From positions 1-64,000 of the forward strand of contig JAPPFM010000002.1 in the NCBI GenBank assembly GCA_028821605.1: a DNA stretch of 64,000 nucleotides, given 5' to 3'. Position numbers and translations under genes: made by a program. The notes beneath the pieces were generated by a model, which ran no database searches, was not told where the DNA came from, and saw only the letters and a program-made list of their open reading frames with translations. The stretch's first letter is position 1, and every line of letters begins with the position of its first letter. This DNA comes from Candidatus Poribacteria bacterium. GTDB lineage: Bacteria; Poribacteria; WGA-4E; WGA-3G. Below are positions 13,932 to 41,549 of this stretch, one piece after another.

Positions 13932-14015
13932 AGCCAAAATATAGTTTCGTGGCTAAATTTAAAAAAATAGAATGAAGGAATACAACGTCTCTTAGGTTAA
14001 ACCAGTAAGTCTTGT

Positions 14016-14044
14016 TTGAAAACGCCTTAGACTTCTGGTATTAT
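14016..14044 (+). promoter_or_regulatory. sigma-70-type promoter for the ABC ATPase gene
   Basis: TTGAAA (14016-14021), 17-bp spacer, TATTAT (14039-14044). Transcription would start near 14051, about 25 bases before the ATG, with GGAGGAG as ribosome site. Confidence 0.6.
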
Positions 14045-14075
14045 ATAGCGGAAAATCAACCGGAGGAGAAACCCG

Positions 14076-14810: not shown

Positions 14811-14831
14811 AACAGAGAAGGGTGAAGAAAT

Positions 14832-18994: not shown

Positions 18995-19627
18995 ATGAAA
19001 AGTGCTTTAACAACACACACTGAACCCAAGCATTTTGATGAACAGGAACTTATCACGCGTGTCCTGAATGGTGATGCTGATGCGTTTAACCCACTTGTGC
19101 GCAAATACCAGCAAAAAATCTATAATATGATTTACCGTCAGGTTCACGACCATGAGACAGCGAAAGACCTCTGCCAAGAGGTGTTCCTCAAAGCATGGCA
19201 AGCACTGCCAAAATTTAAGGGACAATCTGTGTTCTATACTTGGCTCTACAAAATTGCTGTCAATTGCAGTATTGACTTCCTCCGCAAGCGGAAACAAAAG
19301 AAACAGATTATTTTCGCTTGCGAAGCATTACCCCAAAACGCAGACGATGTCCTTCCGATGATTCAGATGCAGCCATCGCCTTGTCAAATCCTTGAGAAGG
19401 AGGAACTTGGACACACTATCCAGAGGGCAGTGCAGCAATTGCCATCTCGCCAACGTCAAGTGTTTCGTTTGCGTTACTTTCATGAACTCCCGATAAAGCA
19501 AATTGCCTTACACATGAACAAGTCGGAGAGCACTGTTAAAACGACCCTGCATCATGCCCGAAAAAAACTTCAAAATATGCTGCGTCCTTACCTCCAAAAC
19601 GAACCGCTTGAGCACCAGATCCGGTAG
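18995..19627 (+). CDS. ECF-type sigma-70 family RNA polymerase sigma factor
   Basis: A 210-residue protein of normal ECF length. Region 2 is at about 35-100 (NPLVRKYQQKIYNMIYRQ...AKDLCQEVFLKAWQALPKF...FYTWLYKIAVNCSIDFLR). Region 4 is at about 145-195 (LPSRQRQVFRLRYFHELPIKQIALHMNKSESTVKTTLHHARKKL). It is of the RpoE/SigW-like group. Unlike the sigma factors at 4757 and 38467 it has no C-terminal extension, and no anti-sigma gene is beside it. It follows the TolC-family gene by 76 bp with GGAGAAAAAT as ribosome site. Confidence 0.92.
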   Translation: MKSALTTHTEPKHFDEQELITRVLNGDADAFNPLVRKYQQKIYNMIYRQVHDHETAKDLCQEVFLKAWQALPKFKGQSVFYTWLYKIAVNCSIDFLRKRKQKKQIIFACEALPQNADDVLPMIQMQPSPCQILEKEELGHTIQRAVQQLPSRQRQVFRLRYFHELPIKQIALHMNKSESTVKTTLHHARKKLQNMLRPYLQNEPLEHQIR

Positions 19628-24766: not shown

Positions 24767-25187
24767 TAAAATTGACACCTATGGTGCGGTTTCCTAACCG
24801 TACCAAAAATACACAAACCCGGTAGGGGCGAGGTTACCTCGCCCCTACAAATCACTTAATCTCACTCATCAGAAAAGAGACCTGTGCCACAATAAAGAAT
24901 AGCAAATTAAACAGCACCAGCAACCCGACTTGCGATAACACACTCCGATAAGAAATCCGCTCCTCAAAGACCGGCACAGCATCCGGATCCACGGGTTTCT
25001 GAGATAACCCCTCTTTCACTGGATAGATATGGAGACTTTCCGAGTCGCTCCGATCCTCGGTTTTAATGAAATCTATGAACGTCTGCCGATAGCGGCGCGC
25101 CTGTTTCACAAAATTCATATAACTCACGATACCTGTATTCGCAAGTCCTTCCATCGCATACTGGAAAGTCGCTATCGGTGAGATTTG
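24767..25187. repeat. near-identical duplicated block (copy 2)
   Basis: Partner of 19799-20215. Similarity drops at the start of the more divergent upstream coding part (about 25188 onward), which argues for a local homogenisation event rather than a recent whole-gene duplication. Confidence 0.85.
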
Positions 25188-26312
25188 GGTGAGATCGCGG
25201 GCAAGCTGCACCTGTCTAAACTGACTGTCAATCTGTCCATCAGCAAACCGAGTTTTCGTCTCCATTTCTCTGGTGAAGTAGTCCGCCCAAAGACGCGTCG
25301 CTTCTGGATTCTCAACAGATGCCGCCTTGCTTAATTTAGAGGGAGTTTCTCTAGATCCGCCATTAGGACGGAATTCATCTCTCAGCTGCCCCAATTGCGC
25401 CTCCTTTTGCATTGAGACTTCGTCAACCGACAAGATCGGATTAAGATTACCGACAAAAGTACCCAACAGACTTGGAAACACAAACGCCAAGCAAACCCAG
25501 GTTAGTAACAACCACACTAAACTTGTAATAGGATTCGAGACGCGACTGGAGAAAAACAGTCCCAGAAAAATAAAAATAGAGAGATGTAACGCGAACACCG
25601 CCACCATCCCTAAAATCTTCAGCCAATCTTCTGACGCAAACGGAATATTTCCGGAGAGAAGGATAACCAACAAATTCATCAGAATGCCGATTACAAGCGG
25701 CACCATCAGTGTTAAAAATGCCCCGAGGTATTTCCCCAACAACACCTGTCCGCGTGAGATAGTGTTGGACATTATCAGACTCAACGTACCGCGCGTCCGT
25801 TCCCCGGCGATCGCATCGAAGGTGAACAAGATAGAAAAAAAACTCATCAGAATACCAATGAAGACCCAATCAATCTTAATCCGCTGCATCGCGCTCCGCG
25901 CCTTGCTCTGCAAAGGATACTCTAATGTCCACGGTGGTGTCCATTCGTAATCTTCAGTCTCATGTTGACCGCTTCGACTCCATGAACCGCCACTCACCAT
26001 CTTGACAGAACGCGGTATCTGGGCATCTGCGCCATCGGCACAGAAAGTCAACCGACTCGGAGATTTTGAAATCTCCCCAGGTCCCACCAGTGCTAACTCC
26101 GCCAAACTTTTATTCGCGGAATTTTGGATATGTTTTGTCTGCTGTGTCCCCTGTCGGTTATAGGCATTGACTTGCACCATGTAGCCATCGCCACCGAGAC
26201 TATACATCAGCGCGTTCGCTACAAACAGGACAGGCAGCAGAATTATCATCAAAGCGAACCGCAGCGTCGTGAGATTGTGGTATATCTCCTTTATCGCAAT
26301 ATGCAAAATCAT
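24852..26312 (-). CDS. ABC-2-type transporter permease B, copy 2 of the duplicated pair
   Basis: A 486-residue membrane protein homologous to 19880-21364 over its whole length: TM1 RFALMIILLPVLFVANALM, TM cluster with FDAIAGERTRGTLSLIMSNT, and a C-terminal TM. The N-terminal three quarters differ at many positions, while the last about 110 residues are identical. It sits 154 bp downstream of permease A copy 2 (26467-27987). Probable role is the second half of a heteromeric exporter permease. No ATPase is adjacent. Confidence 0.85.
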   Translation of the reverse strand: MILHIAIKEIYHNLTTLRFALMIILLPVLFVANALMYSLGGDGYMVQVNAYNRQGTQQTKHIQNSANKSLAELALVGPGEISKSPSRLTFCADGADAQIPRSVKMVSGGSWSRSGQHETEDYEWTPPWTLEYPLQSKARSAMQRIKIDWVFIGILMSFFSILFTFDAIAGERTRGTLSLIMSNTISRGQVLLGKYLGAFLTLMVPLVIGILMNLLVILLSGNIPFASEDWLKILGMVAVFALHLSIFIFLGLFFSSRVSNPITSLVWLLLTWVCLAFVFPSLLGTFVGNLNPILSVDEVSMQKEAQLGQLRDEFRPNGGSRETPSKLSKAASVENPEATRLWADYFTREMETKTRFADGQIDSQFRQVQLARDLTQISPIATFQYAMEGLANTGIVSYMNFVKQARRYRQTFIDFIKTEDRSDSESLHIYPVKEGLSQKPVDPDAVPVFEERISYRSVLSQVGLLVLFNLLFFIVAQVSFLMSEIK

Positions 26313-26466
26313 CTTTTTAATCCTTGGCCTTCGCGCTTTGCTCCACTTCGTTCCGCAAAGGTTCTCGACATGTCTTCACGGTACCTTTTCCAAGGAACCC
26401 CAGATACATATCGGAAACCCGCCTGTAATGGAATGGAAGGCGGTCAAAGTCCAATCGTTTAAAAAT

Positions 26467-27987
26467 TCAACTCATATCATATCGTAGGAAGGATACATAA
26501 GCCGTCATGAATAGAACAATATTCCATGCCAACAAGATTAGAATATCTACTGAAGCACGGGCGAAACTTTCGGTGAGGGAGAGCCGCTGATGTCGGTAAA
26601 CCGGCAGATCCACCAAATCCGCAGCACCCTTATCTGTGGAGAACCACGCCCGCGAAGAAAACGCCTTTTTATCTTTTAGGTATTCAACAATCTCACGTTT
26701 ATAAGCTCTGGACCCCTTAATAAATTCGTTATAACTCTGCTGGTCAGTCCCTGCTATTGTTCCGACAGCGAAGTGATATACGTCTGCGAAGGAAATACGG
26801 GAGAGCGCGTTTGCAAACTTCGCATTCCGCTCCCGTTCTTCCGCAGGTTCGTTGAGAATTTCCTCCGCTTTACCCGCATATTCAGCCCGAAGCCGCTCTT
26901 GATATCCTAAAAGTTCTTGGAAGACGGAGGTATCCGCTTTGCTAATGTTTTGGACGCTATAATTTTCTATTAAAAAATAACCGCCAGACCAAGAACTACT
27001 GCCGGTTCCCGTAAGCTCGTCAGGCTCCCAAGAAATAGACTTCGTTATATTCTCATATCCGCGCTGTTTGACGTATGCATCCCGTTCCTTTTTGAACTCG
27101 TCCCAGACATCGAAAGCAGGTTGGAGAAACGCTGCTTCAGGTTTCGACTGGTACGGTGGGAATTTCTCCACAGCAAACGCCACTACATTTGAATGAACAC
27201 TCGTTAGAATCACCCAAATAAACATCGAAAGGATTAAGGTCGTCGCAGCCGTCTTCGTCCATACTGATAGAAGCAACCCCAAAAGATACCATGTTGATAC
27301 GTACAATAGCGAGACACCGAATATCAGCACGATGTGGGCAATATCGTTTCCATCAAAGGCAGTAACTGGAGAAGAGACAGCGATTAGCAATGCTACGATT
27401 AAACTCACCAACACAATTGGGAACAGGGACAACATCCCGCCGAGATATTTCCCCAACACTATCGTATCTCTCGGTATTGAATTGGATAACACAAGCTTCA
27501 GTGTGCCGTCCTCTCTCTCCCCGGAAATAGTGTTGTACGCAAACAGAATCGCTAAGGCACTCAGCACGATTTTGAAAATGAAAACAACATCAACAGTCAG
27601 GAACATCGCAAGGAACGGGTTGTCTGAACCTCGCTTCTGTGTCGGTGCTTCCCATATTGGGAAAGAGAGTTCAAAGATGGGCTTTGCCAATTCAATAGTG
27701 ACCGTATTTGCCCCATCATTCTCCATTCCCACGTTAAAGATACCCAAAGGATTCGGTTTTCGGTGTGCTTTCGGTTTAATTTTACTATAGAGTTCCCATT
27801 CCCGCGCTTCCACCGTTGCTTCCCGGACAGCAGTATTATATCCCGTCAAACGCTTCTCGTAATCGTCCATCTGAACGAAAACCGCGACGGCAGTTGAAAG
27901 CACGCACACGATAAACCCAATCATAAATCGGGATGTCAACACGTTTGAAACAAATTCTCGCTGGATAACAAGCCAAAGTGCATGCAT
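26467..27987 (-). CDS. ABC-2-type transporter permease A, copy 2 of the duplicated pair
   Basis: A 506-residue membrane protein closely similar to 21594-23132: MHALWLVIQREFVSNVLTSR at the start, HRKPNPLGIFNVGME in the first loop, NTISGEREDGTLKLVLSNSI in the coupling region, and ILILLAWNIVLFMTAYVSFL near the end. A Ser/Gly-rich patch (TGTGSSSWSGG) lies in the second loop. It is first on the minus strand of the A-B-secreted-A-B block. Confidence 0.85.
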   Translation of the reverse strand: MHALWLVIQREFVSNVLTSRFMIGFIVCVLSTAVAVFVQMDDYEKRLTGYNTAVREATVEAREWELYSKIKPKAHRKPNPLGIFNVGMENDGANTVTIELAKPIFELSFPIWEAPTQKRGSDNPFLAMFLTVDVVFIFKIVLSALAILFAYNTISGEREDGTLKLVLSNSIPRDTIVLGKYLGGMLSLFPIVLVSLIVALLIAVSSPVTAFDGNDIAHIVLIFGVSLLYVSTWYLLGLLLSVWTKTAATTLILSMFIWVILTSVHSNVVAFAVEKFPPYQSKPEAAFLQPAFDVWDEFKKERDAYVKQRGYENITKSISWEPDELTGTGSSSWSGGYFLIENYSVQNISKADTSVFQELLGYQERLRAEYAGKAEEILNEPAEERERNAKFANALSRISFADVYHFAVGTIAGTDQQSYNEFIKGSRAYKREIVEYLKDKKAFSSRAWFSTDKGAADLVDLPVYRHQRLSLTESFARASVDILILLAWNIVLFMTAYVSFLRYDMS

Positions 27988-28215: not shown

Positions 28216-29520
28216 CTATTCTGTTTCGGACTTGCCATCCGCTTTTTCGAGGAGTGCAATGCCGATACGTTGTAAACTCTCAGATGTCCCGATATGCCAT
28301 TTTCCATTTATCATATCCACAAACACGAGTGCATCCCGATCCATTTCCAATTCCTGAAGTGCCCAGTTGGTGTACGTAACCGGTTCACCACTTATCCACT
28401 GCCATTCGGTTTGATTCGCCAGATGAGTCAACCCGATTAAAAACGGTTCTTGCCCGAATGTTTCTACAAGCCACTTCTGCTCTGCTTCGTCGTTAATCGA
28501 CACCAAGTGTGCTCCTTCAGCAGTCGCCGTAGCATAGGCATCCTCCCAACTCCTACACCGAATCTTTTTATACGTGTGCCCATTGGCAGGATTCACGACC
28601 CACGCTTCCATGGGGTTCGGCATCGGCATCTTCGGGACAGGCGGAACTGAAGCCTCGCTCAACCGGAAAACCAAATTATGACGGCGTTGCCCCTCTGCGA
28701 TCTTAAACGTTTCCGCTGTTGCCGTGTCTCCTTGATATTCTACAGACACTGTGCAAAACGCTGGCAAATTTACATACATCACAATGTAGCCATCCGAATC
28801 CGTATAGGTTGGACTCCTGCTGAAACTCCCGCTCATCACATCATCTAAACTCCGATAGCTTAGGTGAAGTTTTACGGTTGCGTCGGTTAAGGGTGTGCCA
28901 TCCGCCAAAAGGACCCGACAACGGACGCGCATTCGAGGTTGCACAGTTACTGTTATGTCTTTGATATCCACCCCCGACTTGATGTAAAGCGGGATACCAC
29001 CTACAGTTGACACTTTCTTCGGTTCGACTTCAAAAGTAGAAAGGAACCTAATACGCTGCTCATGTGATACCTGGAAATTTGGCCTGTCAATTGTCAAGAA
29101 ACTCAAACCGCCAATGTCAATGGAGCGAATTTCCGTATCGGATTCAACGGTTCCTGACTTTGGAATTACCACCAATTTCGCGTGCCCCGGAACGATGCTG
29201 CCGATGCGAAAGCTCCCCGTTGAATTGGTCCGAGATTGTTGCATCGGTGTAGGTATCTGCCACATCTCTCCATCAATAATGTCAATCGGTTGAATTCCCA
29301 ACGTAAGATCGGAAACGGGATTCTCCTCCATATCAATAACGCGTCCTGAGAGGGTACTCGCGTCCTCTTGTAGGGGCGAGGTCACCTCGCCCCTACTAAA
29401 CAATGAGGCAACAAGTAAAAGTACTAAAATCCCAATGAAAGCCGCAAGCGGGTGTCTGAAGTTTTGAAATCTTATGATTTTTTCTCCTTTTGATAGATTT
29501 TTTGTGTTGGTTTTTAACAT
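28216..29520 (-). CDS. membrane-anchored carboxypeptidase-regulatory-like / C-type lectin-like protein
   Basis: A 434-residue protein when started at the ATG at 29520, which follows GGAGGAAG; the longer in-frame start at 29559 lacks this. An N-terminal TM is at about 22-40 (PLAAFIGILVLLLVASLF). A CarboxypepD_reg-like domain follows (STLSGRVIDMEENPVSDLTL), then a second beta region (RVRCRVLLADGTPLTDATV). A C-type lectin-like domain closes the protein (about 305-425): NGHTYKKIRCRSWEDAYATA, then AHLVSINDEAEQKWLVE, FLIGLTHLANQTEWQWISG and a WALQ..W stretch. The classical paired cysteines of the fold are not evident. A palindromic repeat is translated right after the TM. Likely a surface glycan- or protein-binding protein. 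Confidence 0.8.
   Translation of the reverse strand: MLKTNTKNLSKGEKIIRFQNFRHPLAAFIGILVLLLVASLFSRGEVTSPLQEDASTLSGRVIDMEENPVSDLTLGIQPIDIIDGEMWQIPTPMQQSRTNSTGSFRIGSIVPGHAKLVVIPKSGTVESDTEIRSIDIGGLSFLTIDRPNFQVSHEQRIRFLSTFEVEPKKVSTVGGIPLYIKSGVDIKDITVTVQPRMRVRCRVLLADGTPLTDATVKLHLSYRSLDDVMSGSFSRSPTYTDSDGYIVMYVNLPAFCTVSVEYQGDTATAETFKIAEGQRRHNLVFRLSEASVPPVPKMPMPNPMEAWVVNPANGHTYKKIRCRSWEDAYATATAEGAHLVSINDEAEQKWLVETFGQEPFLIGLTHLANQTEWQWISGEPVTYTNWALQELEMDRDALVFVDMINGKWHIGTSESLQRIGIALLEKADGKSETE
29371..29397. repeat. GGGGCGAGGT palindrome inside a coding sequence
   Basis: TAGGGGCGAGGT-CA-(A)CCTCGCCCCTA type palindrome, the same family as the intergenic copies at 17448, 19852 and 24824. Here it is translated as part of SRGEVTSPLQ just outside the membrane segment, without breaking the frame. 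Confidence 0.75.
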
Positions 29521-29615
29521 GCGGGCAACTTCCTCCGATAATTTTGTATAGAGACACAACCCTTACAGCCTCAATTTATGTTCAGATTGTACTATATCCC
29601 TTGGGGAACCGATAC

Positions 29616-30449
29616 CTATTCGTCAGTAATTGCCCTATGCTTAATATCTCCCCAAGTAGTAGCAGTCTTGTCTCTGGGCGAAACCGCAAGCATGTTACCC
29701 TTCATTACTGTTCTGATTTCAGTTTGGGTAAGAGAGCGGCTCCAGAGTGCGACTTCATCGATAGCACCGTTGTCAAAGGCATACTGCGGTCGGTCCTTAG
29801 CACATCCAATCCGCAGTGCCTGATCATTGACTTCAGGAAAATCTCGATTGATAGGAAGACTTTCAAAGAAGAGTTCTCCATCAAGATAGACTTTCGCAAA
29901 CGTGCCGTCGTACGTCCCAACAACGTGATGCCACTTTTCATTTTCCGTCTTCGGAAGGGGCTTACTGATTCTTGTCTGATGTCCGGCCCCACCCAAAATT
30001 ATCGTTATAACGGTGCCTTTTAAAGGACCAAGGTGCCAGTGAGCCTCCTTCACTTGGAAGACAGCCATGCCGTAGGCATGCTGCTTGTTTGCAACCCCCC
30101 CAGCATAGACCCCTTTATCAAACCAGTACCCTGAGCCGTCAGCCCAATCTTCTCGATAAACCCAGGCACTCATGGTTATCTCACCACTGATTTTCAGAGA
30201 CTGCCAAGTAGGAACGTTGACCCACTCCTCGGTATCAGCAGTAATCTGAATCGCGTTGCGATGTTTGCCTTTAACAAATTTAGTTTTGCCGACAATCTCG
30301 GCATCGTGCTGGTTGTCAGAGGCATCAAGAATCTTCTTGCCTTCCACACTGTCAAAGGTAAAATAAACAACAAGGTCCTCATCCAGCCCAGCAGAGACGA
30401 AGTTCACTGCCAATAGCCCAAGAATCAAAGGAAATAGTATCCCTTTCAT
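29616..30449 (-). CDS. secreted LamG/concanavalin-like domain protein
   Basis: A 277-residue protein with a signal peptide (KGILFPLILGLLAVNFVSA) and one LamG-like jelly-roll domain over nearly all of it: LVVYFTFDSVEGKKILDASD at the start, ITMSAWVYRED in the middle, WHHVVGTYDGTFAKVYLDGE and IDEVALWSRSLTQTEIRTV toward the end. Known members bind glycans or protein ligands outside the cell. I place the start at the ATG at 30449 (GGAG 7 bases upstream); a GTG at 30455 overlaps the previous gene's stop. It is separated from that stop by 2 bp, so the two are translated in close coupling. Confidence 0.85.
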   Translation of the reverse strand: MKGILFPLILGLLAVNFVSAGLDEDLVVYFTFDSVEGKKILDASDNQHDAEIVGKTKFVKGKHRNAIQITADTEEWVNVPTWQSLKISGEITMSAWVYREDWADGSGYWFDKGVYAGGVANKQHAYGMAVFQVKEAHWHLGPLKGTVITIILGGAGHQTRISKPLPKTENEKWHHVVGTYDGTFAKVYLDGELFFESLPINRDFPEVNDQALRIGCAKDRPQYAFDNGAIDEVALWSRSLTQTEIRTVMKGNMLAVSPRDKTATTWGDIKHRAITDE

Positions 30450-30451
30450 TT

Positions 30452-33196
30452 TCACTCTCCAATCGGATATTGATGCGGAACGATTTCAACAATTTTATCC
30501 CCAGCGTTTGCCTCAAAAAAGGCGACAATATCATCAATCATTTCACTTTTGATTTCATGCCCGGTATCCTCATAGGTAACAAATTGGGCAGGAATCTCAA
30601 GCGTTTTGTATATTAATTGGCTTAAGTGCCATCGATCCGGCATCATTTTAACTTCAATGAGACTTTTGATCGATCTGGCACCTGTTTCATCATAAGCATC
30701 TTGATACCACGGAATAGCATCATTGTTATCAAGTACACCCATGTAGATGTACTGGGACACCTTCTTATATGACGTTTCATCAAAGTTAATCCTAGTGATC
30801 TCTTTCACGTCTGCAATTCCGATAGGATAACGCATTATGGTATCACTCCAGCGATCCGTTGGAAAGGTCGGTATACTATTGACACCACCCGTCGCGACCG
30901 CTCGGACAACCTTCGGATGCAAAATCGCAAACCGATTTGTAAACAACCCTGAAGCCGAAAATCCGTTCATGAAAACCTGCTCATTTACCTTTAGGTCATT
31001 GTGCCGCAGAAGCCGCTGTGCATGGACTATCATTTTGATAAGTTGTAAGTCGATCCGCCTAAGTTCGCCCTCTTTAACAAGGAGGGTATCTCTATCTAAA
31101 GAATGCGTGTAGATATGATTCCGCTCTCCACCGGGTCTCGGAAAAACAGGCACAAGCAATGGAACTTTCAGTTTTCTTGCGATTAGAGTCGCATGAGATC
31201 TCTCTGCTAATCCCTTCGCATTCTTATCGTGGACTTTAAAATTGTCGCTAACTGTTCCGGTGTTGCAAGGCTCTATCAGTAGATGAACCGGCTTGCTGGA
31301 ATCTATTCCTCGTGGAACAAACAGATAATACGGAAAAGCAAATCCTTCTGTGAGGTCAACTGAAACGCGGCAAAGTAGCTCATTCGAGAGGTTTAGTTCC
31401 TCAATACCTGTTACATGGATAGGTGTCATATCCACAAAAGTAGGCGTAACTGGATCGGGACCCTCCGTTGTAAATGTAAGGACATACTCTTCTTCCATCG
31501 GAACCCCTATCATGTTTCTATAACCTTCATTGCGTCCCAATATAAGCCGGTAAATCTTTGAGGGTGATAGACGTTGATTAAACGAAATAACGTGGATTGT
31601 GTTGTTGTCTTCCCACCGGACATTGCCGACCGGAACCCCACCGTGCGCCACATCGACACCTGTCATTTTTTGATTGAAAACAATCCTTATCTCCTTGAGA
31701 TCCATTGGAACTTTTTCAGATACGTCGGGAATGGTTCTCACTACTTTTGGAGGTGTTGTCCCTTGTTGGGTCAAATCAGCATGTTCTTCGCTTTCCGTAG
31801 CAGCACCGGCACGCGGAACGTTGATGCGTTCGTCTGAATATTGGTATGGGTTAATTTCAACTATCTCAGTACCCGAATTCGCCTTGAAAAACCCGATGAC
31901 ATCATCAATCATCTCATCCTTGATTTCATGCCGGGTATTCTCGTACGTAACAAATTGCGCAGGGATTTCAAGTGTCCTATATATCGACTGACTCGTGTCC
32001 CACCGATTTGGCATCATTTCAGCACCAATGAGGTTTTTGACCAATTCAGCGTCAACCGCATCATAAGCATCTCGGTATGGAATGGTGTCATTGTTATCCA
32101 AGGCACCCATATAAATGTACTGGGAAACACGTTTATATGCCGCTTCGTCAAAATCAATACCAGCGATCTCTTTTATGTCAGCAATTCCAACAGGGTAACG
32201 CATTGTGGTCCCGTTCCACTGATCCGTTGGAAAGGTCGGAATGCAGTTGACTCCACCCGTCGCTACAGCACGAACAAGTGTTGGATGTAAAATCGCAAAC
32301 CGATTTGTAAACGTCCCGGAAGCCGAAAATCCGTTCATGAAAATCTTCTCATTTACCTTCACATCATTGTGTCGCAGCAGTGTTTGGGCATGCGCTATCA
32401 TTGCAATTAGCTGCAAGTCAATTCGCTTGAGATCTCCATCTCTAATCAGGAGTGTTTCCCTATCCAAAGCGTGTGTGTAGAGCGTCCCACCGGGTCTCGG
32501 AAAAACAGGCATGAGCAACGGTATTTTTAGTTTTCTTGCGACACTACTGGCAGAACATGTCTCTATTGATTCCTTTGCATTCCTATCAAGGCTTTTAAAA
32601 CTGCTACCAACCCCTGTGTTGTTTGGTTCTACAAGTAGATAAATCGGTTTGTCCAAGCTTATTCCTTGTGGAATGAGTAGATAATATGGGAAGTTAAACC
32701 CTTCTGTGGGGTTTTCGGAAACGCGACAAAGCAGCTTGTCTGAAAGATCAAGCCCTTCAATATCTGCCACACGAACAGGCGTTGTATCTACAAAAGTAGG
32801 CGTAACCGGTTCGGGTCCCTCCGTTGTGAAGGTGAGCACATATTCTTCTGCTAACGGAACTCCAGCCATATTTTGGTAGCCCTCGTTGCGTCCTAATATA
32901 AACCGATAGACTTTTGAGGGTGATAAGGGTTCACTAAATGAAATAACATGGGTTGTGTTGTCGTCTTCCCACCGGATACCGACCCGCTGGACCCCACAAT
33001 GCGCCACATCAACACCTGTCATTTCTTCACTGAAGACAATCCTTATCTCCTTGAGATCCGTTGAAATTTTTTCAGATACGTCGGGAATAATCCTTACAAC
33101 TTTTGGGGGTGCTGCCCCTTGCTGTGCCAAAACAGCACTTGATGCACCGCTCAAAAGGATTATTAACACTACCAAAAAGACGAAACTGCTTATCAT
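30452..33196 (-). CDS. secreted protein with two tandem Big_5 + alpha/beta-hydrolase units
   Basis: A 914-residue protein. I use the ATG at 33196 (TAGGAGGAAAC upstream; signal peptide MISSFVFLVVLIILLSGASS) rather than the longer in-frame start. Two homologous halves are arranged head to tail. Each has an Ig-like Big_5 domain (PPKVVRIIPDVSEKI...YVLTFTTEGP) followed by an alpha/beta-hydrolase-like region. Both halves keep a G-x-S-x-G nucleophile motif (MNGFSASG), an Asp in (L)DNND, and a late His (TRHEIKDE or TGHEIKSE), consistent with a Ser-Asp-His triad. The halves have diverged but align throughout. Substrate unknown; an esterase or peptidase-like role is possible. An ECF-type promoter element lies 78 bp upstream. 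Confidence 0.8.
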   Translation of the reverse strand: MISSFVFLVVLIILLSGASSAVLAQQGAAPPKVVRIIPDVSEKISTDLKEIRIVFSEEMTGVDVAHCGVQRVGIRWEDDNTTHVISFSEPLSPSKVYRFILGRNEGYQNMAGVPLAEEYVLTFTTEGPEPVTPTFVDTTPVRVADIEGLDLSDKLLCRVSENPTEGFNFPYYLLIPQGISLDKPIYLLVEPNNTGVGSSFKSLDRNAKESIETCSASSVARKLKIPLLMPVFPRPGGTLYTHALDRETLLIRDGDLKRIDLQLIAMIAHAQTLLRHNDVKVNEKIFMNGFSASGTFTNRFAILHPTLVRAVATGGVNCIPTFPTDQWNGTTMRYPVGIADIKEIAGIDFDEAAYKRVSQYIYMGALDNNDTIPYRDAYDAVDAELVKNLIGAEMMPNRWDTSQSIYRTLEIPAQFVTYENTRHEIKDEMIDDVIGFFKANSGTEIVEINPYQYSDERINVPRAGAATESEEHADLTQQGTTPPKVVRTIPDVSEKVPMDLKEIRIVFNQKMTGVDVAHGGVPVGNVRWEDNNTIHVISFNQRLSPSKIYRLILGRNEGYRNMIGVPMEEEYVLTFTTEGPDPVTPTFVDMTPIHVTGIEELNLSNELLCRVSVDLTEGFAFPYYLFVPRGIDSSKPVHLLIEPCNTGTVSDNFKVHDKNAKGLAERSHATLIARKLKVPLLVPVFPRPGGERNHIYTHSLDRDTLLVKEGELRRIDLQLIKMIVHAQRLLRHNDLKVNEQVFMNGFSASGLFTNRFAILHPKVVRAVATGGVNSIPTFPTDRWSDTIMRYPIGIADVKEITRINFDETSYKKVSQYIYMGVLDNNDAIPWYQDAYDETGARSIKSLIEVKMMPDRWHLSQLIYKTLEIPAQFVTYEDTGHEIKSEMIDDIVAFFEANAGDKIVEIVPHQYPIGE

Positions 33197-33273
33197 TTGT
33201 TGTTTCCTCCTAACCTCCCTTGAAAATCGATGGAATCTCAAGGGATAACTTCAGAAAAAGAATATTGCCTTAC

Positions 33274-33310
33274 GACGTTATGTCGCGTTTTAACGGAGGA
33301 AAGGTTGCAT
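33274..33310 (-). promoter_or_regulatory. ECF-type promoter element before the duplicated hydrolase
   Basis: On the minus strand: TGCAACCTTTCCTCC, then TTAAAACGC and GACATAACGTC. The distance from TGCAACC to GACATAACGTC is exactly the same as at 41513-41549. GACATAACGTC is itself a near palindrome. Confidence 0.6.
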
Positions 33311-33348: not shown

Positions 33349-34224
33349 TTATTTTTTGTCCGAATCAGTAGATTCGATTTTGTATTGCGTGAGTTCAAGG
33401 CTCTTCTCTATTTTTAAATCAGCGGATTTGCGGATAAACTTCACAATTCCGACATTAGGTGCTAACCAGAGCGTTGATTTTTCTATATCAGAGACATCTG
33501 AAGATGTAGGTTTTGCCGTTTCCGCTTTTTTTGATGCCTCCCTATCATCTCCCATCCAATACTCAATTTTTATACAGTCCTCAAACATTCCTGCAGGGGT
33601 CTTCACAGTTTCTGTACTTACAACCTTCCCTTTCTCGACTAAAGCAATAGGAATAGCATTAGCCCGATCACCACCCGGAATCTGAAAATCGGGACTTTGT
33701 ATTTTAAGTTTGAGTGTTATAGATCCACTGATCCGCATCGCTGTCCACTCTTTATCGAAAACAACAGGGGTTGGAAGAAGATAAAAATCGTTCTGCGCGT
33801 CGACTTCAATTGCATAACTAAAATCAGCACTGGCACCAGAGGTAGTCGAGATGCCTTGCTGTTCCTTGATATCCGCATCCATCCCTTTACGGAGCCTTGC
33901 CTCAAATGCTTTTTCAACTTCATCACCGACAAAGAACACGATTCCGTCTTTACGGATTTGGTAAAAATTGGGATGAAAGTAATGCTCGTAATCCATCCAA
34001 TCTTCCACAGCGGGTTCATAGTCGAAGGCATGATACGTTTCACCCTCAATCGTTTTCTCCTTTACGGCACGGCGTGTTAATCTGTTTCCGTCCTGATCTT
34101 CGTAAACCCAGAAACTTCCGGATGTCCGTGGGAAATAGCCGTTTAGCGATTCCTCGGCTATCAATGCTGGGCTAACACCAAAAATAAGCAATAGACTAAA
34201 AAGGATACGAAATCTTTTCAACAT
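33349..34224 (-). CDS. secreted YWVYEDQDG-family protein, paralogue 3
   Basis: A 291-residue protein started at the ATG at 34224, after TGGAGGAACTTATC, rather than 5 codons upstream. Signal peptide MLKRFRILFSLLLIFGVSPALIA. It is homologous to 134-1024 and 23239-24096, with SFWVYEDQDGNRLTRR near the start, TPAGMFEDCIKIEYW and STLWLAPNVGIVKF near the end. It follows the M61 operon by 24 bp on the same strand, so it may be its last gene. This placement matters because D1 of the upstream proteins is a related domain. Confidence 0.85.
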   Translation of the reverse strand: MLKRFRILFSLLLIFGVSPALIAEESLNGYFPRTSGSFWVYEDQDGNRLTRRAVKEKTIEGETYHAFDYEPAVEDWMDYEHYFHPNFYQIRKDGIVFFVGDEVEKAFEARLRKGMDADIKEQQGISTTSGASADFSYAIEVDAQNDFYLLPTPVVFDKEWTAMRISGSITLKLKIQSPDFQIPGGDRANAIPIALVEKGKVVSTETVKTPAGMFEDCIKIEYWMGDDREASKKAETAKPTSSDVSDIEKSTLWLAPNVGIVKFIRKSADLKIEKSLELTQYKIESTDSDKK

Positions 34225-34248
34225 GATAAGTTCCTCCAATAGACAAAA

Positions 34249-36054
34249 TCACCGCCTGCTGCCTAAAATACCATCCAAAATGGAGCGTTGGAAGCCTGTG
34301 CTATCCGCGCTTTTGCTTATTGCTACACTTACCACTCCCTCTTCTACTGGCAGTTCTTCAGCTGTTCCGCCTAATGTGACGGGCAGTGTGATTTTTTCAC
34401 CACTTCTTTCAAGAGTCAATTCAACCACATCACCAGATTTCCAATCTTTGGCAAGTTTCGCCATGCCGCTAAACGAATTCACCGGTGTACCATTGATGGC
34501 AGCCAGATTATCTCCATCTCTATACGTCGAGGATTTATCGATAATTAGAGTTCCCCCTTGTGTTCGTGTCAGGGATCTGATACCGAGCATCTCTTTAAGG
34601 ACATAACCGAGCTCAGGAAGCTCATCCTCTATCTGCACGTCCAGACCCGCCTCTCCGAAATATTCAGCGAGCGGCAACCTTTCCGTTCCCGAAACATACT
34701 TGCGAAAGAACGGCTCAAAATCTTTACCCGCAACGTCAGTGATAATACGGATGACATCATCTATCGTATACGTTTCATCGGTGGTGCCAAACTCCTGATA
34801 CATCTGTTTCATCACATCGTCCAGACTCTTTTGCCCCGCGTCCATTGAGACGTGTGAGAGTTTGCGAATCTGCACATCCAAAGCCGCAGCAACCAGACCG
34901 CCGCCACAATAGACCAAACCTGAGTTTCCCATTTTGTCTGCCCCCGCCTCGCGCATGGAGAGTGTGCCAGCTTGACGTAGATACGATTCACAGATTCGTT
35001 CAAGGTTTTTGAAGAAATCGGCTTCAGAAAGGAGTCCGAGCCGAACAGAGATAATCTCTGAATAATAATCGGTGAACCCTTCCATAAACCAGTATTCCTG
35101 TTCATCAAAAAATTCAATGGCTGTCCCGATCCAAATATGGCAAACTTCATGTGCCACCAGCGGCACCCAAAAATTTTTACTCGTTTCATCTAAGGGACCC
35201 CCCATCAGCGTGCTGATGCTGCGTCCAGAAACGCCGCCCCGCGTTTCACCCTTTCCGCCATAAGGGTTTGCAACAAACAGCATCTTCTCCTTCGGGGTCC
35301 CGCCGAAAACCTTTGAATACGCGTGTAAAAGTGCTTCAACTGTGCGCTGTATTTCATCAGCAGCGACTTTAAAACTCCCACCGATTGCCAATACAATCTC
35401 CGCTTCATTGGTTTCCCTGTTTGACAAACGTGCTATCTTCTCAGAATGCGTACCAAGCACCATATACGCATACATCAAATCGTCTTGGTCTGCAATAGTG
35501 AAACGGTGTCCTTTATCGTCGACGTGTTGCCAAGGAGTCGAGACGTGCCAATCATCGGGTACATCAACAGACAGTTCAATATCGCTCACCTCACCAACGA
35601 CGAACAGTGCATATCCGGGACAGAAAATACAGTCCTCTTGGACGTAGGGAGCCTCATCGCGACCAGGGGGCCATTCTATTTCATCATGGTTCAGCAATAC
35701 TTTGTAATTCAGCACCATAGGCGATTTATCCCTTGTTTTAACCGCCCACTGCGTTTTACCAAGAAGCACGAGCGGTAGTTTTTCTCCGTCAGCATTCGTA
35801 ACCGATAGATCTCGGAGGTACCTGCCATATCCATCGTGTATCCCGTTCGCGCCAAAATCACTCATAGACAATAGAAGCCCTTCGCCGTTGTCATGTTTCG
35901 GGGTTAAGACACCCCTAACATGCGCCACACGCGGTTCGCCAGCATCTATTTTAACTTCATACCTCACTGACGCAAGTTCCATCGGGTTCTCAAGAGTGTC
36001 GGACTCACCGAAGTTGCTGACAACGTGACATGTTTCAATAACCGCTTCTTTCAT
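34249..36054 (-). CDS. M61-family peptidase with C-terminal PDZ domain (short form)
   Basis: A 601-residue protein. I start at the ATG at 36054 (CAGGAGGGAACTC upstream); the in-frame extension to 36240 overlaps the previous gene. It opens directly in the beta-rich N-terminal domain (MKEAVIETCHVVSNF). The zinc motif is complete: HEVCH in PLVAHEVCHIWIG and the third-ligand Glu in YWFMEGFTDYY, 18 residues later. A PDZ domain closes the protein (GYVLKEMLGIRSL...GDNLAAINGTPVNSFS...GDVVELTLERSG). M61 peptidases (glycyl aminopeptidase group) are known to carry a C-terminal PDZ. No signal peptide is visible, so it may be cytoplasmic. It overlaps the upstream gene by 20 bp. Confidence 0.85.
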   Translation of the reverse strand: MKEAVIETCHVVSNFGESDTLENPMELASVRYEVKIDAGEPRVAHVRGVLTPKHDNGEGLLLSMSDFGANGIHDGYGRYLRDLSVTNADGEKLPLVLLGKTQWAVKTRDKSPMVLNYKVLLNHDEIEWPPGRDEAPYVQEDCIFCPGYALFVVGEVSDIELSVDVPDDWHVSTPWQHVDDKGHRFTIADQDDLMYAYMVLGTHSEKIARLSNRETNEAEIVLAIGGSFKVAADEIQRTVEALLHAYSKVFGGTPKEKMLFVANPYGGKGETRGGVSGRSISTLMGGPLDETSKNFWVPLVAHEVCHIWIGTAIEFFDEQEYWFMEGFTDYYSEIISVRLGLLSEADFFKNLERICESYLRQAGTLSMREAGADKMGNSGLVYCGGGLVAAALDVQIRKLSHVSMDAGQKSLDDVMKQMYQEFGTTDETYTIDDVIRIITDVAGKDFEPFFRKYVSGTERLPLAEYFGEAGLDVQIEDELPELGYVLKEMLGIRSLTRTQGGTLIIDKSSTYRDGDNLAAINGTPVNSFSGMAKLAKDWKSGDVVELTLERSGEKITLPVTLGGTAEELPVEEGVVSVAISKSADSTGFQRSILDGILGSRR

Positions 36055-38467
36055 GAGTTCCCTCCTGAAAAGGATGATTCCCATTGCCCAACATCCCTGA
36101 CCAGATCGAGCGTTGGAAGTCCGTGCTATCCGTTCTCTTCGTAATGGTAACATCAATAGGACCTGCCTCCAATGGGATTTCTTTAGACGCGTCCCCTCCC
36201 AACGTGATGGGTAGGATAATCTCTTTCCCCACTCTTTCAAGGGTTAACTCCACCACATCACCGGGTTTCCAATCTTTGGCAGCCTTCCTGATGTCGTCAA
36301 AAAACTTCACTGGTGCGCCGTTGACCCCTATCAAGTTGTCGTCATCCTGATACTGCTCGGACTCGTGGATGAACATACCCCCTCCTGTCGGACCACCAAA
36401 TGAACTGATTTGAAGCATCTCATGCACAATATACCCAAGACTCGGAAGTTCCTCGCTAAATTCTACATGGGAATCTTTACCAGCCTTCTCAAGATATTCC
36501 TCCAAAGGCAAGCGTTCCGTTCCCGAAACATACTTGCAGAAGAACGGTTCCAAATCTTCACCCGCAATTTGGTTGACAACTCTGATGACATCACGCATTG
36601 TGTATTTATTTCCGGTGAGACCGAATTCCCGATATATCTGCTTCATTACATCGTCCAAACTCCTCAGGTTTTGCGTGAGACTGCGAATCTGTAAATCCAA
36701 AGCTGCAGCAATTAGACTCCCTCCCTGATAAACGAGTTCTCGGTTGACGGACTTGTCCTCGCCCGCCTCTCGGATAGAGAGCTCACCCTGTCGAGATAGA
36801 TACGATTCCCACTTGCTTTCAAGATCTCTGAGAAAATCACTCTCAGAAGTTAATCCGAGGCGGGTACAGACAATTCTTGAATAGTATTCGGTGAAACCTT
36901 CGCTAAACCAGTATTCCTGCCATTTAAAACCGATCGTTTTTCCAAGCCAGATATGGAAAACCTCATGCGCAACCAGCGGCCCCCAAAAACTCCTATCCGT
37001 TTCACTCAAAGATCCACTCGTCAGAACACTGATACTGCGTCCAGAAACACCACCTCCGCGGTGTTTTTCATCGGGGTTCGCCACAAACAGCATACGCTCC
37101 TTTGGCGTACCCTCAAAAACTTCGGAATACGTGTGTAGGAGTGATTCAACAGTTTTTTGAACCTCATCCATAGACGCTCTGAAGCGTCCACCCAGTGCAA
37201 GCACAATTTCTACCTCTTCCGCCGCCTTTGACAAACGTGCTATCCTCTCGGAATGCGTCCCAAGTAAGAGATAGGCAGACATCAAATTGTTCTCGTCCGT
37301 GATAGCAAAACGGTGTCTTTCGTTTCCAATACGCTGCCATGATGTTGAGACACGCCAATTCTCGGGAACATCAAGATAAAGTTCGATATCCTCCACTTCT
37401 GCAACGATGAACACGGCATATCCGGGCAAGAAAATACAGTCCTCTTGGAGGTAAGGGGTTTCAGGCTTACCGAACTGCCATTCCCGCTCATCATGATTTA
37501 GCAATACTTTGTAGTCCAGTGTCACAGGCGCGTCATTCTCAGTTTCAACCATCCACTGTGTTTTGCCAATCTCTGTGACCGGTATTCTTTCGCCATTGGC
37601 ATTGGTAGCTCTTAAATCGCGGAGATATCTGCCATATCCATCGTATAAATTCCCAGCACCAAAATGGCTCATGGACAAGAGTAACGGCTTTCTATCTCCG
37701 TTTAGATTACTACTTACTTTCGGCGTTAAGACACACGTGACATGCGCTACACGCCGTTCCGTAGCATCCATTTTAACTTTATACCGCGCCGATACAAGTT
37801 CCATGGGATTATCAAGATTTTCAGGTGCACTGAAATTTCTGATGACGTGCCACTCTTCAATAATCGCTGCGTCGCGATAATCGTTCTGCCATTTGTAGGC
37901 CCACATATTACCGATTTGTAACGGAAGGTATTCTTGGGCTTCGGCAGGAATTTCATATTCAAGCAGCTCAGCTTCCGTGACAACACCGTTGGAATGCTCA
38001 TAGCGCATCTTCACGAGTCCAACGCCCTCGGCAAACCATAGATAGCGCGTGCCGTCTAAGTACGCCTTCCCCAGTTCAGCATTGGGACCCGCAACATCAG
38101 CGTCTGTGAACACAGTTTTATGTTTCAGACACGATGGGAAAGTCTCAGTGGAGGTTTCGACCGTCTCATACCCTTCCAAACTCGCGGCTGCTTTTGATCC
38201 ACCAGGCCCCTCCCGCTCCCAACCATCTCCAATAACTAAAGGAAATCTAAAGAGGTTAACGTTACCACCATAACTAACATAGTGTAGCAACATGTACATC
38301 GGTAGCGGATAGCCGCCACTGCGCCCTCTCGTGCGAGAACCGGTAGATGCCAAAGCGGTATCGGTTTTCTTGAAATTGAGAGTCCCTTCCGCCAAATGCT
38401 CACCATTTTCTGTAGCAGCATCAGCAGCAAATACAATAGTGCGTTCGGATTTAACCGTTTTTTTCAT
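36035..38467 (-). CDS. D1-M61 peptidase-PDZ protein (middle form)
   Basis: An 810-residue protein. Residues about 5-172 form domain D1, related to the C-terminal part of the YWVYEDQDG family (FPSCLKHKTVF, then TRYLWFAEGVGLVKM). Residues about 175-690 are the M61 peptidase with HEVFH at 501-505 and Glu in YWFSEGFTEYY at 523 (17 residues between, one fewer than in the short form). A PDZ domain follows (GYIVHEMLQISSF...DDDNLIGVNGAPVKFF). There is no signal peptide; the start MKKTVKSERTIVFAADAA aligns with the junction after the sigma domain of the upstream gene, as if it were that protein without its sigma part. The ATG overlaps the upstream stop by one base, so translation is coupled. Confidence 0.88.
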   Translation of the reverse strand: MKKTVKSERTIVFAADAATENGEHLAEGTLNFKKTDTALASTGSRTRGRSGGYPLPMYMLLHYVSYGGNVNLFRFPLVIGDGWEREGPGGSKAAASLEGYETVETSTETFPSCLKHKTVFTDADVAGPNAELGKAYLDGTRYLWFAEGVGLVKMRYEHSNGVVTEAELLEYEIPAEAQEYLPLQIGNMWAYKWQNDYRDAAIIEEWHVIRNFSAPENLDNPMELVSARYKVKMDATERRVAHVTCVLTPKVSSNLNGDRKPLLLSMSHFGAGNLYDGYGRYLRDLRATNANGERIPVTEIGKTQWMVETENDAPVTLDYKVLLNHDEREWQFGKPETPYLQEDCIFLPGYAVFIVAEVEDIELYLDVPENWRVSTSWQRIGNERHRFAITDENNLMSAYLLLGTHSERIARLSKAAEEVEIVLALGGRFRASMDEVQKTVESLLHTYSEVFEGTPKERMLFVANPDEKHRGGGVSGRSISVLTSGSLSETDRSFWGPLVAHEVFHIWLGKTIGFKWQEYWFSEGFTEYYSRIVCTRLGLTSESDFLRDLESKWESYLSRQGELSIREAGEDKSVNRELVYQGGSLIAAALDLQIRSLTQNLRSLDDVMKQIYREFGLTGNKYTMRDVIRVVNQIAGEDLEPFFCKYVSGTERLPLEEYLEKAGKDSHVEFSEELPSLGYIVHEMLQISSFGGPTGGGMFIHESEQYQDDDNLIGVNGAPVKFFDDIRKAAKDWKPGDVVELTLERVGKEIILPITLGGDASKEIPLEAGPIDVTITKRTDSTDFQRSIWSGMLGNGNHPFQEGTHERSGY

Positions 38468-41448
38468 CAGTCAGAATTCTCCTTTCCCAACATTCCCAAC
38501 CAGATAGCGCGTTGCGATTCCGTGCTATCTTCGCTTTTTGTGATCGTAACATCAATAACGCCCGTCTCTAAAGGCGGTTTTTTAGAAGCATCACCTGCTA
38601 ATGTGATAGGTAGGATAATCTCTTTGCCTTCTCGCCCAAGGGTCAAATCCACCACATCACCGGATTTCCAACCTTTGGCAACCTTCCTGATGTCGTCAAA
38701 TGTCTTAACTGGTGTGCCGTTGATGCCTACCAATTCATCGTCATCCTGATACTGCGGTGAATGATGGATGAACATACCACCACTTGTTGGTCCTCCAAGA
38801 GACTGAATCTGAAGCATCTCAAAAAGAACATATCCAAGGCTCGGAAGTCTTTCACCAAAGTCTATCTCAACATCTATACCCGCATCTTTAAGGTATTCTT
38901 CTAAAGGCAATCGCTCTGTCCCTGCCACATATTTGTGGAAGAAGGGTTTAAAATCTTTACCCGTAATCTGGCTGACGATCTTGATGACATCGTTCATCGT
39001 GTACGTGCTGTTGGTAAGACCGAATTCCTGATACATCTGCTTCATCACATCGTCTAAGCTGCTTCGATTTTGTGTAAGTGTGCGAATTTGCAAGTCCAAA
39101 GCCGCAGCGACTAAACTACCGCCATCATAAACGAGTTCTCGGTTAGCAGATTTATCTTTCCCTGCCTCACGGATAGACAACTCCCCCTGTTGGGATAGAT
39201 ATGCTTCCCACCTGCGTTCAAAACTCCTGAGAAAACGGCTTTCAGAAGTAAGCCCAAGACGGACAGAAACAATATCTGAATAATATCTCGGGAAACCCGC
39301 GCCCAACCAATATTCCTGCTCCTTAAAATTGAGAATCTGCCCGCCAATCCAGAGAGAGGAAACCATGTATCCCACCAGCGGTAACCAAAAACGTCTGCTC
39401 GCTTCATCCAATTCACCACCGATCAACACGCTGATGCTGCGCCCGGACGCACCCCCACTCATGCTTCCCTTTTCGTGATATGGGTTTGCGACAAATAACA
39501 GCTTACCGCTCGGGGTGCCACCGAATATCCCTGAATACGCGTTCAGCAGTGCCTCAACAGTACCCTGGACTTCATTCATCGACGCTTTGAAGTGTGCCCC
39601 AGTCGCCAGTACAATCTCGGTATCCCCAACCTTCACCAAACGTTCGTGGTGTTCACCAATCACGAGATACGCAAACATCAAGTCGTCCTGATCCTTGCAA
39701 ACGAAACGGTGCTCATCAGACTCAATCCGCTCCCAAGGCGTTGAGACATGCCAATTATCAGGAACATCAAGGTACAGTTCAACATCGCTCACCTCACCGA
39801 CAACAAACAGCGCATACCCTGGACAGAAAATACAGTCCTCTTGGACATAAGGGGCTTCATCTGGACCCGGTGCCCACTCCCGTTCATCGTGATTCAGCAA
39901 CACTTTGTAACGCAACGTTACAGGGGATGCATCCCGCGTTTCAACCAACCACTGTGTTTTGCCAATCTCCTCTACCGGCAACCTCTCACCTTTTGCATCG
40001 GTAACGGTCAAATCTCGAAGATACCGACCATATCCATCATATACATACTCAGCCCCAAATCGACTCATGTATAACAGCAAAGGCTTTCGATCCTCTGTTG
40101 CGCCGCTGCTGCCTTTCGGTGTTAGCAGACACTTGACGTTTGCCACGCGTCGTTCAGCGGCTTCTATTTTAACCTCATACCTCGCCGAAGCAAGCTCCAT
40201 CGGGTTATCAAGATTCGCGGGATGACTGAAATTCCGGATGACGTGCCACTCTTCAACGATCGCTTCATCGCGATAATCGTTCTGCCATCTGTATGTCCAT
40301 CGCGTGCCAATTTGCGAAGGTAGATATTCTTGTTCTTGGACAGGCATTTCATACTCAAGCAACTCGGCTTCTGTAATAACACCACTGGAATGCTCATAGC
40401 GCATCTTCACGAGTCCAACGCCCTCGGCAAACCACAGATAACGCGTGCCATTTATATACGCGTTTCCATCTTCAGCGTGGGGGTCTTCCACGTCAGCGTC
40501 TGTGAAGACAGTTTTATGTTTCAGGCACGATGAGAAACTCCCAGCAGAGATTTCGACATTTTCATATCCTTCCAAGGTTATCGTTGCCTTCGATTGGTGA
40601 GGACCTTCCTGCTCCCAGCAACTTCCAATAACCAAAGGAAATCTAAAAAGGTTCATCTCATTACCACGGTGGTTAATGTAGTGTAGCAACATGTACATTG
40701 GCAGCGGGTAATCCCCTCTGAGTCCTGTCGTACGAGAACCGATAGATGTGAAAACCTTATCGGTTTGACTGAGGTCGAAACCGCCTTCCGCTAAATGTTG
40801 ACCGGTTTCGGTTGCCGCGGTCGCTTGAACACCAATGTATCGCGGTTCGCTTTTCAATAAATTTGGACTTAAGTTTTCTCGAAGCATCGACTCCTCCTGC
40901 TCCAACCGTTTCCGTGCACGATATAGTCGACTTTTCACTGTGTTCAGGGATACATCCAAACGCGTACCTACCTCTTCACATGTCAAGCCGTTGAAATAGT
41001 GCAATACCATCACTGAACGTTCTGCTTCTGGTAACTTCTGAAGAAGGCGTTCCACAACTTCACGCAGTCCATCTGTTGATGCTTGCGTCTGCTCCTTCTC
41101 AAGATACTGCGTATAGAATACCGTTTCTAACTCGGCTTTCGGCATGGCATCCAGTGATTGCATGGTAATCGGCTTCCGCCGCAGCCATTCAATACACTGA
41201 CGTTTTGCTATTACATATAACCATCCTAAAAAACGATTGGTGTCTCTTAAATTTGGAAGTGATTTAAAAGCCTGAATGAATGTGTCCTGCGTAATTTCTT
41301 GTGCCGCGTGGAAATCACCGATCTCACGCCATGCGAGCGAATGAATCCACTTCCGATGTCTTTCCATCAGCGCGGTGAACGCACCTTCATCACCCGACAA
41401 GATGCGTTGAATCAGAGTAACGTCTTCGCCTTGATTGTTAAAATCCAT
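38467..41448 (-). CDS. ECF sigma factor fused to D1, inactive M61 domain and PDZ
   Basis: A 993-residue fusion. Residues about 1-195 are an ECF sigma factor: region 2 FHAAQEITQDTFIQAFKSLP and GWLYVIAKRQCIEWL; region 4 LPEAERSVMVLHYFNGL...LNTVKSRLYRARKRL. Then D1 (about 205-365), an M61-like region (about 370-890) and a PDZ domain (GYVLFEMLQIQSLGG...GINGTPVKTFDD). Where the neighbours have HEVCH or HEVFH this protein has YMVSS, and where they have the third-ligand Glu it has Ala (YWLGAGFPRYY). All zinc-site residues are gone, so it should be catalytically dead. No TM segment links the parts. It heads an operon with two peptidases whose zinc motifs are complete. It may sense a ligand or peptide in the cytoplasm and control the sigma domain; that is inference. 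An ECF-type promoter lies 65 bp upstream. Confidence 0.9.
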   Translation of the reverse strand: MDFNNQGEDVTLIQRILSGDEGAFTALMERHRKWIHSLAWREIGDFHAAQEITQDTFIQAFKSLPNLRDTNRFLGWLYVIAKRQCIEWLRRKPITMQSLDAMPKAELETVFYTQYLEKEQTQASTDGLREVVERLLQKLPEAERSVMVLHYFNGLTCEEVGTRLDVSLNTVKSRLYRARKRLEQEESMLRENLSPNLLKSEPRYIGVQATAATETGQHLAEGGFDLSQTDKVFTSIGSRTTGLRGDYPLPMYMLLHYINHRGNEMNLFRFPLVIGSCWEQEGPHQSKATITLEGYENVEISAGSFSSCLKHKTVFTDADVEDPHAEDGNAYINGTRYLWFAEGVGLVKMRYEHSSGVITEAELLEYEMPVQEQEYLPSQIGTRWTYRWQNDYRDEAIVEEWHVIRNFSHPANLDNPMELASARYEVKIEAAERRVANVKCLLTPKGSSGATEDRKPLLLYMSRFGAEYVYDGYGRYLRDLTVTDAKGERLPVEEIGKTQWLVETRDASPVTLRYKVLLNHDEREWAPGPDEAPYVQEDCIFCPGYALFVVGEVSDVELYLDVPDNWHVSTPWERIESDEHRFVCKDQDDLMFAYLVIGEHHERLVKVGDTEIVLATGAHFKASMNEVQGTVEALLNAYSGIFGGTPSGKLLFVANPYHEKGSMSGGASGRSISVLIGGELDEASRRFWLPLVGYMVSSLWIGGQILNFKEQEYWLGAGFPRYYSDIVSVRLGLTSESRFLRSFERRWEAYLSQQGELSIREAGKDKSANRELVYDGGSLVAAALDLQIRTLTQNRSSLDDVMKQMYQEFGLTNSTYTMNDVIKIVSQITGKDFKPFFHKYVAGTERLPLEEYLKDAGIDVEIDFGERLPSLGYVLFEMLQIQSLGGPTSGGMFIHHSPQYQDDDELVGINGTPVKTFDDIRKVAKGWKSGDVVDLTLGREGKEIILPITLAGDASKKPPLETGVIDVTITKSEDSTESQRAIWLGMLGKENSD

Positions 41449-41512: not shown

Positions 41513-41549
41513 GACGTTATGTCGTATTTTAAGGAAGGAAAGGTTGCAT
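41513..41549 (-). promoter_or_regulatory. ECF-type promoter element before the sigma-M61 operon
   Basis: On the minus strand: TGCAACCTTTCCTTCC, then TTAAAATAC and GACATAACGTC. It matches the element at 33274-33310 in sequence and spacing. Its place before the sigma gene suggests autoregulation. Confidence 0.65.

Follow-up and report, generated by a model that had tools for sequence, protein, structure and literature searches.

An ECF sigma factor fused to an M61 peptidase fold without its zinc site in Candidatus Poribacteria

Gene organization of the locus

The window, i.e., the whole 64,000-nucleotide stretch of DNA analysed here, belongs to a Candidatus Poribacteria genome of 5.99 Mb in 60 contigs; its features lie on the minus strand unless marked (+). 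At 38467..41448, an unbroken open reading frame with a GGAGG upstream of its ATG encodes a 993-aa protein, in which a sigma domain is followed by DUF3108-like, pseudo-M61 and PDZ-like domains. The N-terminal part (aa 1–190, 40879..41448) contains sigma2 and sigma4 and matches Pfam Sigma70_r2 and Sigma70_r4_2 (PF04542, 53 bits; PF08281, 60 bits; both over the curated cut-offs) as well as TIGR02937 (93.2 bits vs. a cut-off of 42.9), and by this domain test the protein is an ECF sigma factor. The DUF3108-like domain (aa 199–400, 40249..40854) was assigned from a weak match to PF21347 (16.4 bits). No transmembrane (TM) helix was found by hydropathy in the fusion, where no 19-residue window exceeds 1.25 on the Kyte–Doolittle scale, including the stretch between the sigma and DUF3108-like domains. 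The pseudo-M61 domain (aa 401–860, 38869..40248) passes the cut-off for Peptidase_M61_N (PF17899, 51.9 vs. 23 bits) and is related to the structures 4fgm, 8j9c and 7xyo by Foldseek/VIA, and its score for Peptidase_M61 (PF05299, 18.8 bits) is under the cut-off of 22, which some sister fusions pass. The C-terminal part (aa 861–993, 38470..38868) scores below the cut-off for PDZ_2 (PF13180, 15.2 vs. 27 bits) and is called PDZ-like by its position in the structure model, since the alignment to 4fgm spans this region up to model residue 989.

Two M61-PDZ paralogues with intact zinc sites lie downstream. The first, ORF2 (36035..38467), has neither a sigma domain nor a signal peptide, and its ATG overlaps the stop codon of the fusion by one base. 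The second, ORF1 (34249..36240), probably starts well inside the listed frame. The two are 68% and 57% identical to the fusion across the shared part, which in the fusion opens with the DUF3108-like domain ahead of M61. The initial annotation had described about 800 residues homologous to both paralogues; ORF1, which has no DUF3108-like domain, has no more than about 600 residues in common with the fusion. This domain of ORF1 was lost in the genome of the window and is kept by the orthologues in G008 and G017.

The same gene run continues with an exported DUF3108-like protein (33349..34239; PF21347, 28 bits). Further along lie an exported protein with a Big_5 domain and two hydrolase-like halves (30452..33241, likely start ATG at 33196; Big_5 is the sole Pfam match, and the hydrolase-like character was judged by inspection), an exported LamG/ConA-like protein (29616..30455; PF13385, 80.8 bits), next in the run a carboxypeptidase-regulatory-like and C-type lectin protein (28216..29559), and a pair of ABC-2 permeases (24852..27987, i.e., 26467–27987 and 24852–26312). 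Two ABC-2 permeases are also among the commonest genes downstream of the fusion across relatives, and in the single-contig genome G021 they stand directly 3′ of it. No anti-sigma gene was recognisable among the downstream genes listed or the window neighbours scanned with Pfam. Elsewhere in the window, at 10277–17171(+) and 18995–19624(+), there are further ABC-2-like permeases and an ABC ATPase-like gene, and close by a short, stand-alone gene for an ECF-like sigma factor.

Loss of the metal site

The downstream paralogues carry HEVFH and HEVCH together with the third zinc ligand Glu. At the corresponding positions the fusion has YMVSS (aa 694–698, 39355..39369) and Ala717 (39298..39300), as shown by alignment to the paralogues and by the family profile, which aligns these positions with HE..H and Glu of the M61 structures 4fgm and 8j9c. 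All four metal/catalytic positions are thus substituted (Y694, M695, S698 and A717), in agreement with the initial annotation, and by the zinc-site test the fusion has the M61 fold but is not an M61 peptidase.

Orthologous fusions and their phylogeny

A search with the M61 part, which covered 98 genomes and the set genome_contigs, returned many full-length fusions in open frames of about 1000 aa. Among them are 30 orthologous fusions without a TM helix in two Poribacteria genera, single-contig genomes included. The sigma-M61 fusion reported initially is therefore real, and an assembly error joining two genes is ruled out by the recurrence of the same fusion in many assemblies, some of them single-contig. 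Outside this Poribacteria family, no fusion turned up when 85 genomes of the phylum were searched at E 1e-20, nor by a pattern scan of genome_contigs, which reaches close relatives only.

A maximum-likelihood tree was calculated from 75 M61 domains, comprising the 30 TM-less fusions and 45 other homologues. The TM-less fusions are monophyletic (support 100/99), and their sister group is the sigma-less ORF2-type M61 without a signal peptide. The catalytic Glu is absent from all 30 (M, V or L instead), as is the second His (S or Y instead); the first His position is occupied by Y, H, R, N or G. In place of the third Glu, 22 have Ala, and the other eight keep the residue. HEHE is present in 45/45 of the other homologues. 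The loss of the zinc site is a single evolutionary event without reversion, rather than 30 independent ones.

Homologous fusions that retain the zinc site, which the initial annotation had named as evidence against its reading, do literally exist. In two proteins, L052 and L053, sigma is followed by a TM helix and then by the DUF3108-like, M61 and PDZ-like domains, and HEIFH and Glu are both retained; the TM helix, however, is one that the dead fusions do not have. They are more distant and branch outside the rest of the clade under midpoint rooting, and their peptidase should face the outside of the cell in view of the TM helix after sigma. Several sigma-less M61 proteins possess a TM helix and a stretch resembling the linker of the sigma-TM proteins. 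Lipobox-like signal sequences are seen in M61 proteins that are more distant. The simplest order would lead from an exported enzyme to a sigma-TM enzyme and then to a TM-less sigma factor with a dead peptidase.

An 800-aa fusion in G011 (L060:7267-9666(-)) has no DUF3108-like domain and keeps sigma, the dead M61 and the PDZ-like part. The in-frame stop in shorter sigma-DUF3108 matches most likely just terminates a gene of about 430 aa, as in L007.

Selection and structure of the dead peptidase

The catalytic-fold region of the fusions shows dN/dS values of 0.12–0.24 (Nei–Gojobori, 11 ortholog pairs), which are near those of the active ORF2 type (0.12–0.27); the sigma part gives 0.04–0.20. The pseudo-peptidase is thus under purifying selection. 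Of the M61-PDZ positions, 184 do not vary among 24 active relatives. The fusions are likewise invariant at 121 of these and have clearly lost only 11, including all four metal/catalytic positions and three in the strand close to the active site. Tyr-x-Gly-Gly at 774–777 is kept, and W468, E493, G608, Y657, W747, E771 and E850 are specific to the fusions. The edge strand of the active site has drifted too (667, 669 and 673), so that the old cleft may no longer bind a ligand.

An AlphaFold model of the fusion built with 74 sequences has a mean pLDDT of 80, with higher values over most of M61. Its pTM is 0.64, with modest confidence in the sigma part and the linkers and too little to place sigma relative to the extension; the linker 188–199 has a pLDDT below 50. 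By VIA, the model matches 4fgm with Z 33.7 (rmsd 5.1, 516 aligned), 8j9c with Z 28.4 and 7xyo with Z 24.0, so in the model the pseudo-peptidase keeps the M61 fold. Regarding the conservation of fold and PDZ proposed initially, the fold is borne out by the match to 4fgm, while the PDZ assignment stands only as PDZ-like by position. As to the substrate cleft, for which the initial annotation had suggested a check, it is retained only in part, the metal site being lost and the edge strand having drifted.

A promoter-like motif and its predicted regulon

A highly specific ECF-type promoter-like motif (TGCAACCTT...CGAC) is present ahead of nearly every fusion gene. When the sequences 5′ of the fusion genes are aligned, a strongly conserved block, TTTTATGCAACCTTTCC..TTAAAATACGACATAACGTC, stands out ahead of the start codon; this block looks like an ECF promoter with an AAC-type −35 and a CGAC −10. 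TGCAAC...CGAC is conserved 5′ of the fusion orthologues, and the sigma part of the fusion would be the candidate to recognise it. In the window, the putative promoter of the fusion operon (TGCAACCTTTCCTTCCTTAAAATACGAC) lies at 41521..41548. The full pattern occurs at only one other site in this genome of 6 Mb (33282..33309), also its only other good match, which precedes the exported hydrolase-like protein at 30452–33241, followed by the LamG and lectin genes; the hydrolase-like protein is a predicted target, and the LamG protein a predicted co-transcribed one.

Of 74 genomes, 27 contain the pattern, and these all belong to one genus; a reversed-pattern control gave zero matches. The sites that do not belong to fusions stand in the right orientation to their downstream genes, which encode TM-anchored active M61 proteins (G008, G017, G024, G035), hydrolase-like DUF3108 proteins (G006, G008, G017), LamG proteins (G009, G013, G026), another exported protein (G009) and an ABC-2-like permease (G023, G030); G030 has its site before the ABC-2 gene yet no fusion. 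In G005 a site lies ahead of a sigma-DUF3108 protein, the 418-aa product of L123 (contig C175), which has no M61 and shares the promoter motif of the fusions. In the second genus, the motif matches ahead of the fusion and near-matches occur just 3′ of it. The sigma-TM paralogues are preceded by another motif, TGAGACTTTTT..GCGTCAC. Extra sites are commoner in fusion-bearing genomes (14/28 vs. 1/10), a difference of borderline significance (p = 0.056). The similarity of the motif copies reaches beyond the −35 and −10 elements, so some target sites may have been copied with tandem gene duplications.

Sigma fusions across the lineage

The genome of the window contains 77 Sigma70_r4_2 matches, many of them in frames of 400–1350 aa. 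In 35 of the 42 long sigma proteins that were inspected, sigma is followed by a hydrophobic segment, in most cases near residues 215–225. Fusion of sigma to an effector is thus a habit of the lineage, in which the TM-less form with a dead peptidase is unusual. The parts fused to sigma in the proteins scanned comprise WD40 propellers, BNR/sortilin-like repeats, AhpC/TSA redoxins and DUF3108-like domains. Two TM-less sigma factors, L165:796-2739(-) and L169:181-2358(+), carry a C-terminal AhpC/TSA (peroxiredoxin-like) domain. In another TM-less ECF sigma factor of this genome (L159:628-2346(-), contig C55 near 110 kb), the fused part is an entire DNA polymerase III beta sliding clamp, with all three clamp domains over the cut-off, and a normal 375-aa clamp gene is present as well. 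This sigma-clamp fusion recalls the late transcription of phage T4, where sigma works with the clamp.

Proposed mechanism and alternative explanations

The sequence evidence suggests that the fusion in these sponge-associated Poribacteria activates the operon to which it belongs, together with neighbouring genes for exported enzymes, among them functional M61 copies. The reading that we favour, and consider fairly probable, is that the fusion is a one-protein, autoregulated cytosolic ECF sigma regulator with a de-catalysed peptidase as its sensor. The sigma2/sigma4 part would bind RNA polymerase and read the dedicated promoter, and the C-terminal 800 residues (DUF3108-like, dead M61 and PDZ-like) would replace an anti-sigma factor as a sensor built into the protein. 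The dead peptidase may bind a peptide, or a protein end via the PDZ-like part, without cutting it, and this binding would alter the hold of the extension on sigma2/sigma4. The freed sigma would then transcribe its own operon, which in many genomes includes the sigma-less active M61 and the ABC-2 permeases, as well as other operons that encode exported hydrolases, LamG proteins and active M61 peptidases. The initial annotation had seen the pseudo-peptidase as a regulator of the sigma domain that binds a ligand, peptide or partner. An on-board regulatory role is indeed the best reading, because the fusion is real and conserved, its fold is kept under purifying selection and no anti-sigma gene was recognised adjacent to it, while the ligand and the direction of the switch are what we infer; the earlier interpretation as a whole is thus partly supported.

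Control through a partner is an alternative to which we give a rather low probability. Here, the dead copy and the co-translated active M61 would form a mixed complex that gates sigma, or the dead copy would inhibit the active one. The one-base overlap of the two genes in the window, the position of the active paralogue directly 3′ of the fusion in many relatives and the status of the ORF2 type as the closest active relative are consistent with this proposal. However, seven genomes (G012, G021, G023, G026, G031, G033 and G048), one of them single-contig, have no PF05299 match besides the fusion, and in these the fusion clade is maintained and its upstream motif is unchanged. An M61 partner with an intact site is therefore optional, and an obligate one is ruled out for these seven genomes. 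About equally unlikely in our view is proteolytic release, in which the extension simply inhibits sigma until a signal leads to cleavage or degradation of the extension, with the PDZ or the cleft recruiting the protease, comparable to IutY. Proteolytic activation of sigma-extension fusions has precedents (PMC8999054), and the low-confidence linker 188–199 is in line with this reading. IutY, however, is membrane-bound whereas the dead fusions have no TM helix, and the entire M61 fold is conserved, beyond the need of a simple inhibitor.

Two further explanations concern the dead site itself and are far less probable than either of these. The metal-site residues differ among subclades (Y/H/R/N/G, M/V/L, S/Y and A/E), as would be expected if the M61 part were a functionless remnant carried along by sigma. 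Purifying selection across all domains, the retention of full length in two genera and the 121 retained invariant positions strongly disfavour this decay, and we regard it as ruled out by dN/dS but for a very slight residual chance. It is likewise very improbable that the fusion is an altered enzyme with other chemistry or another metal, e.g., through the Glu remaining in one subclade. The third Glu is retained in eight fusions (GVY..E, NVY..E), and so is Tyr-x-Gly-Gly, but the catalytic Glu occurs in no fusion and no set of metal ligands is conserved clade-wide.

Returning to the built-in sensor, the fusion probably arose from a sigma-TM-M61 enzyme-sensor after loss of the membrane helix and the zinc site. 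A broader proposal, which we hold tentatively and rate a little below an even chance, is that an enzyme turned into a sensor through stages still extant in one family, i.e., from exported active M61 lipoproteins via sigma-TM-M61 with the active enzyme outside the cell to a soluble sigma-dead M61 controlling the genes for active forms of this enzyme.

Comparison with known systems

Regulation of ECF sigma factors by C-terminal extensions is an established kind, and non-canonical ECF sigma factors likewise occur without an adjacent anti-sigma gene (PMC8999054). The fusion resembles these factors (PMC8999054, PMC3426412) in that an extension after sigma2/sigma4 would replace the anti-sigma factor; its 800-residue dead M61-PDZ with a DUF3108-like domain, in contrast, is not among the extension types described in the section of PMC8999054 consulted. 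IutY and ECF52 SCO4117 (PMC8999054) also join sigma to its controller, in a layout shared by L052 and L053, but are membrane-tethered, whereas the window fusion has no TM helix. In the SigI-RsgI systems of Clostridium thermocellum (PMC4711584, PMC12203970), sigma similarly turns on exported hydrolases via a substrate-related sensor; these consist of two membrane-spanning proteins with substrate sensing shown, unlike the single soluble protein with a dead peptidase, known from its sequence, considered here. MocR/GabR regulators (PMC6917764, PMC5320631) provide a parallel in which a DNA-reading domain is fused to an enzyme fold as ligand sensor, although they combine a winged helix with a PLP aminotransferase fold and their ligand binding has been shown, whereas sigma and M61 are combined here and binding is predicted. 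The M61 glycyl aminopeptidases (4fgm, 8j9c, 7xyo) share the fold and the domain order M61_N, M61 and PDZ-like with the fusion, but have the HExxH and third Glu that it has not. A search of the open-access literature gave nothing relevant on ECF sigma factors in Poribacteria or on a pseudopeptidase combined with a sigma factor.

Implications

The initial annotation had called for a search for further sigma-M61 fusions, which yielded the 30 dead TM-less proteins and the two zinc-intact ones with a TM helix. With its 77 Sigma70_r4_2 matches, many in very long fusion proteins, the genome of the window opens up a large, little-read system. If the proposed mechanism is true, this would be a sigma factor that senses its signal through a de-catalysed protease and whose likely ancestors and regulon can be traced in neighbouring genomes, and the fusion family would offer a testable case of enzymes becoming sensors.
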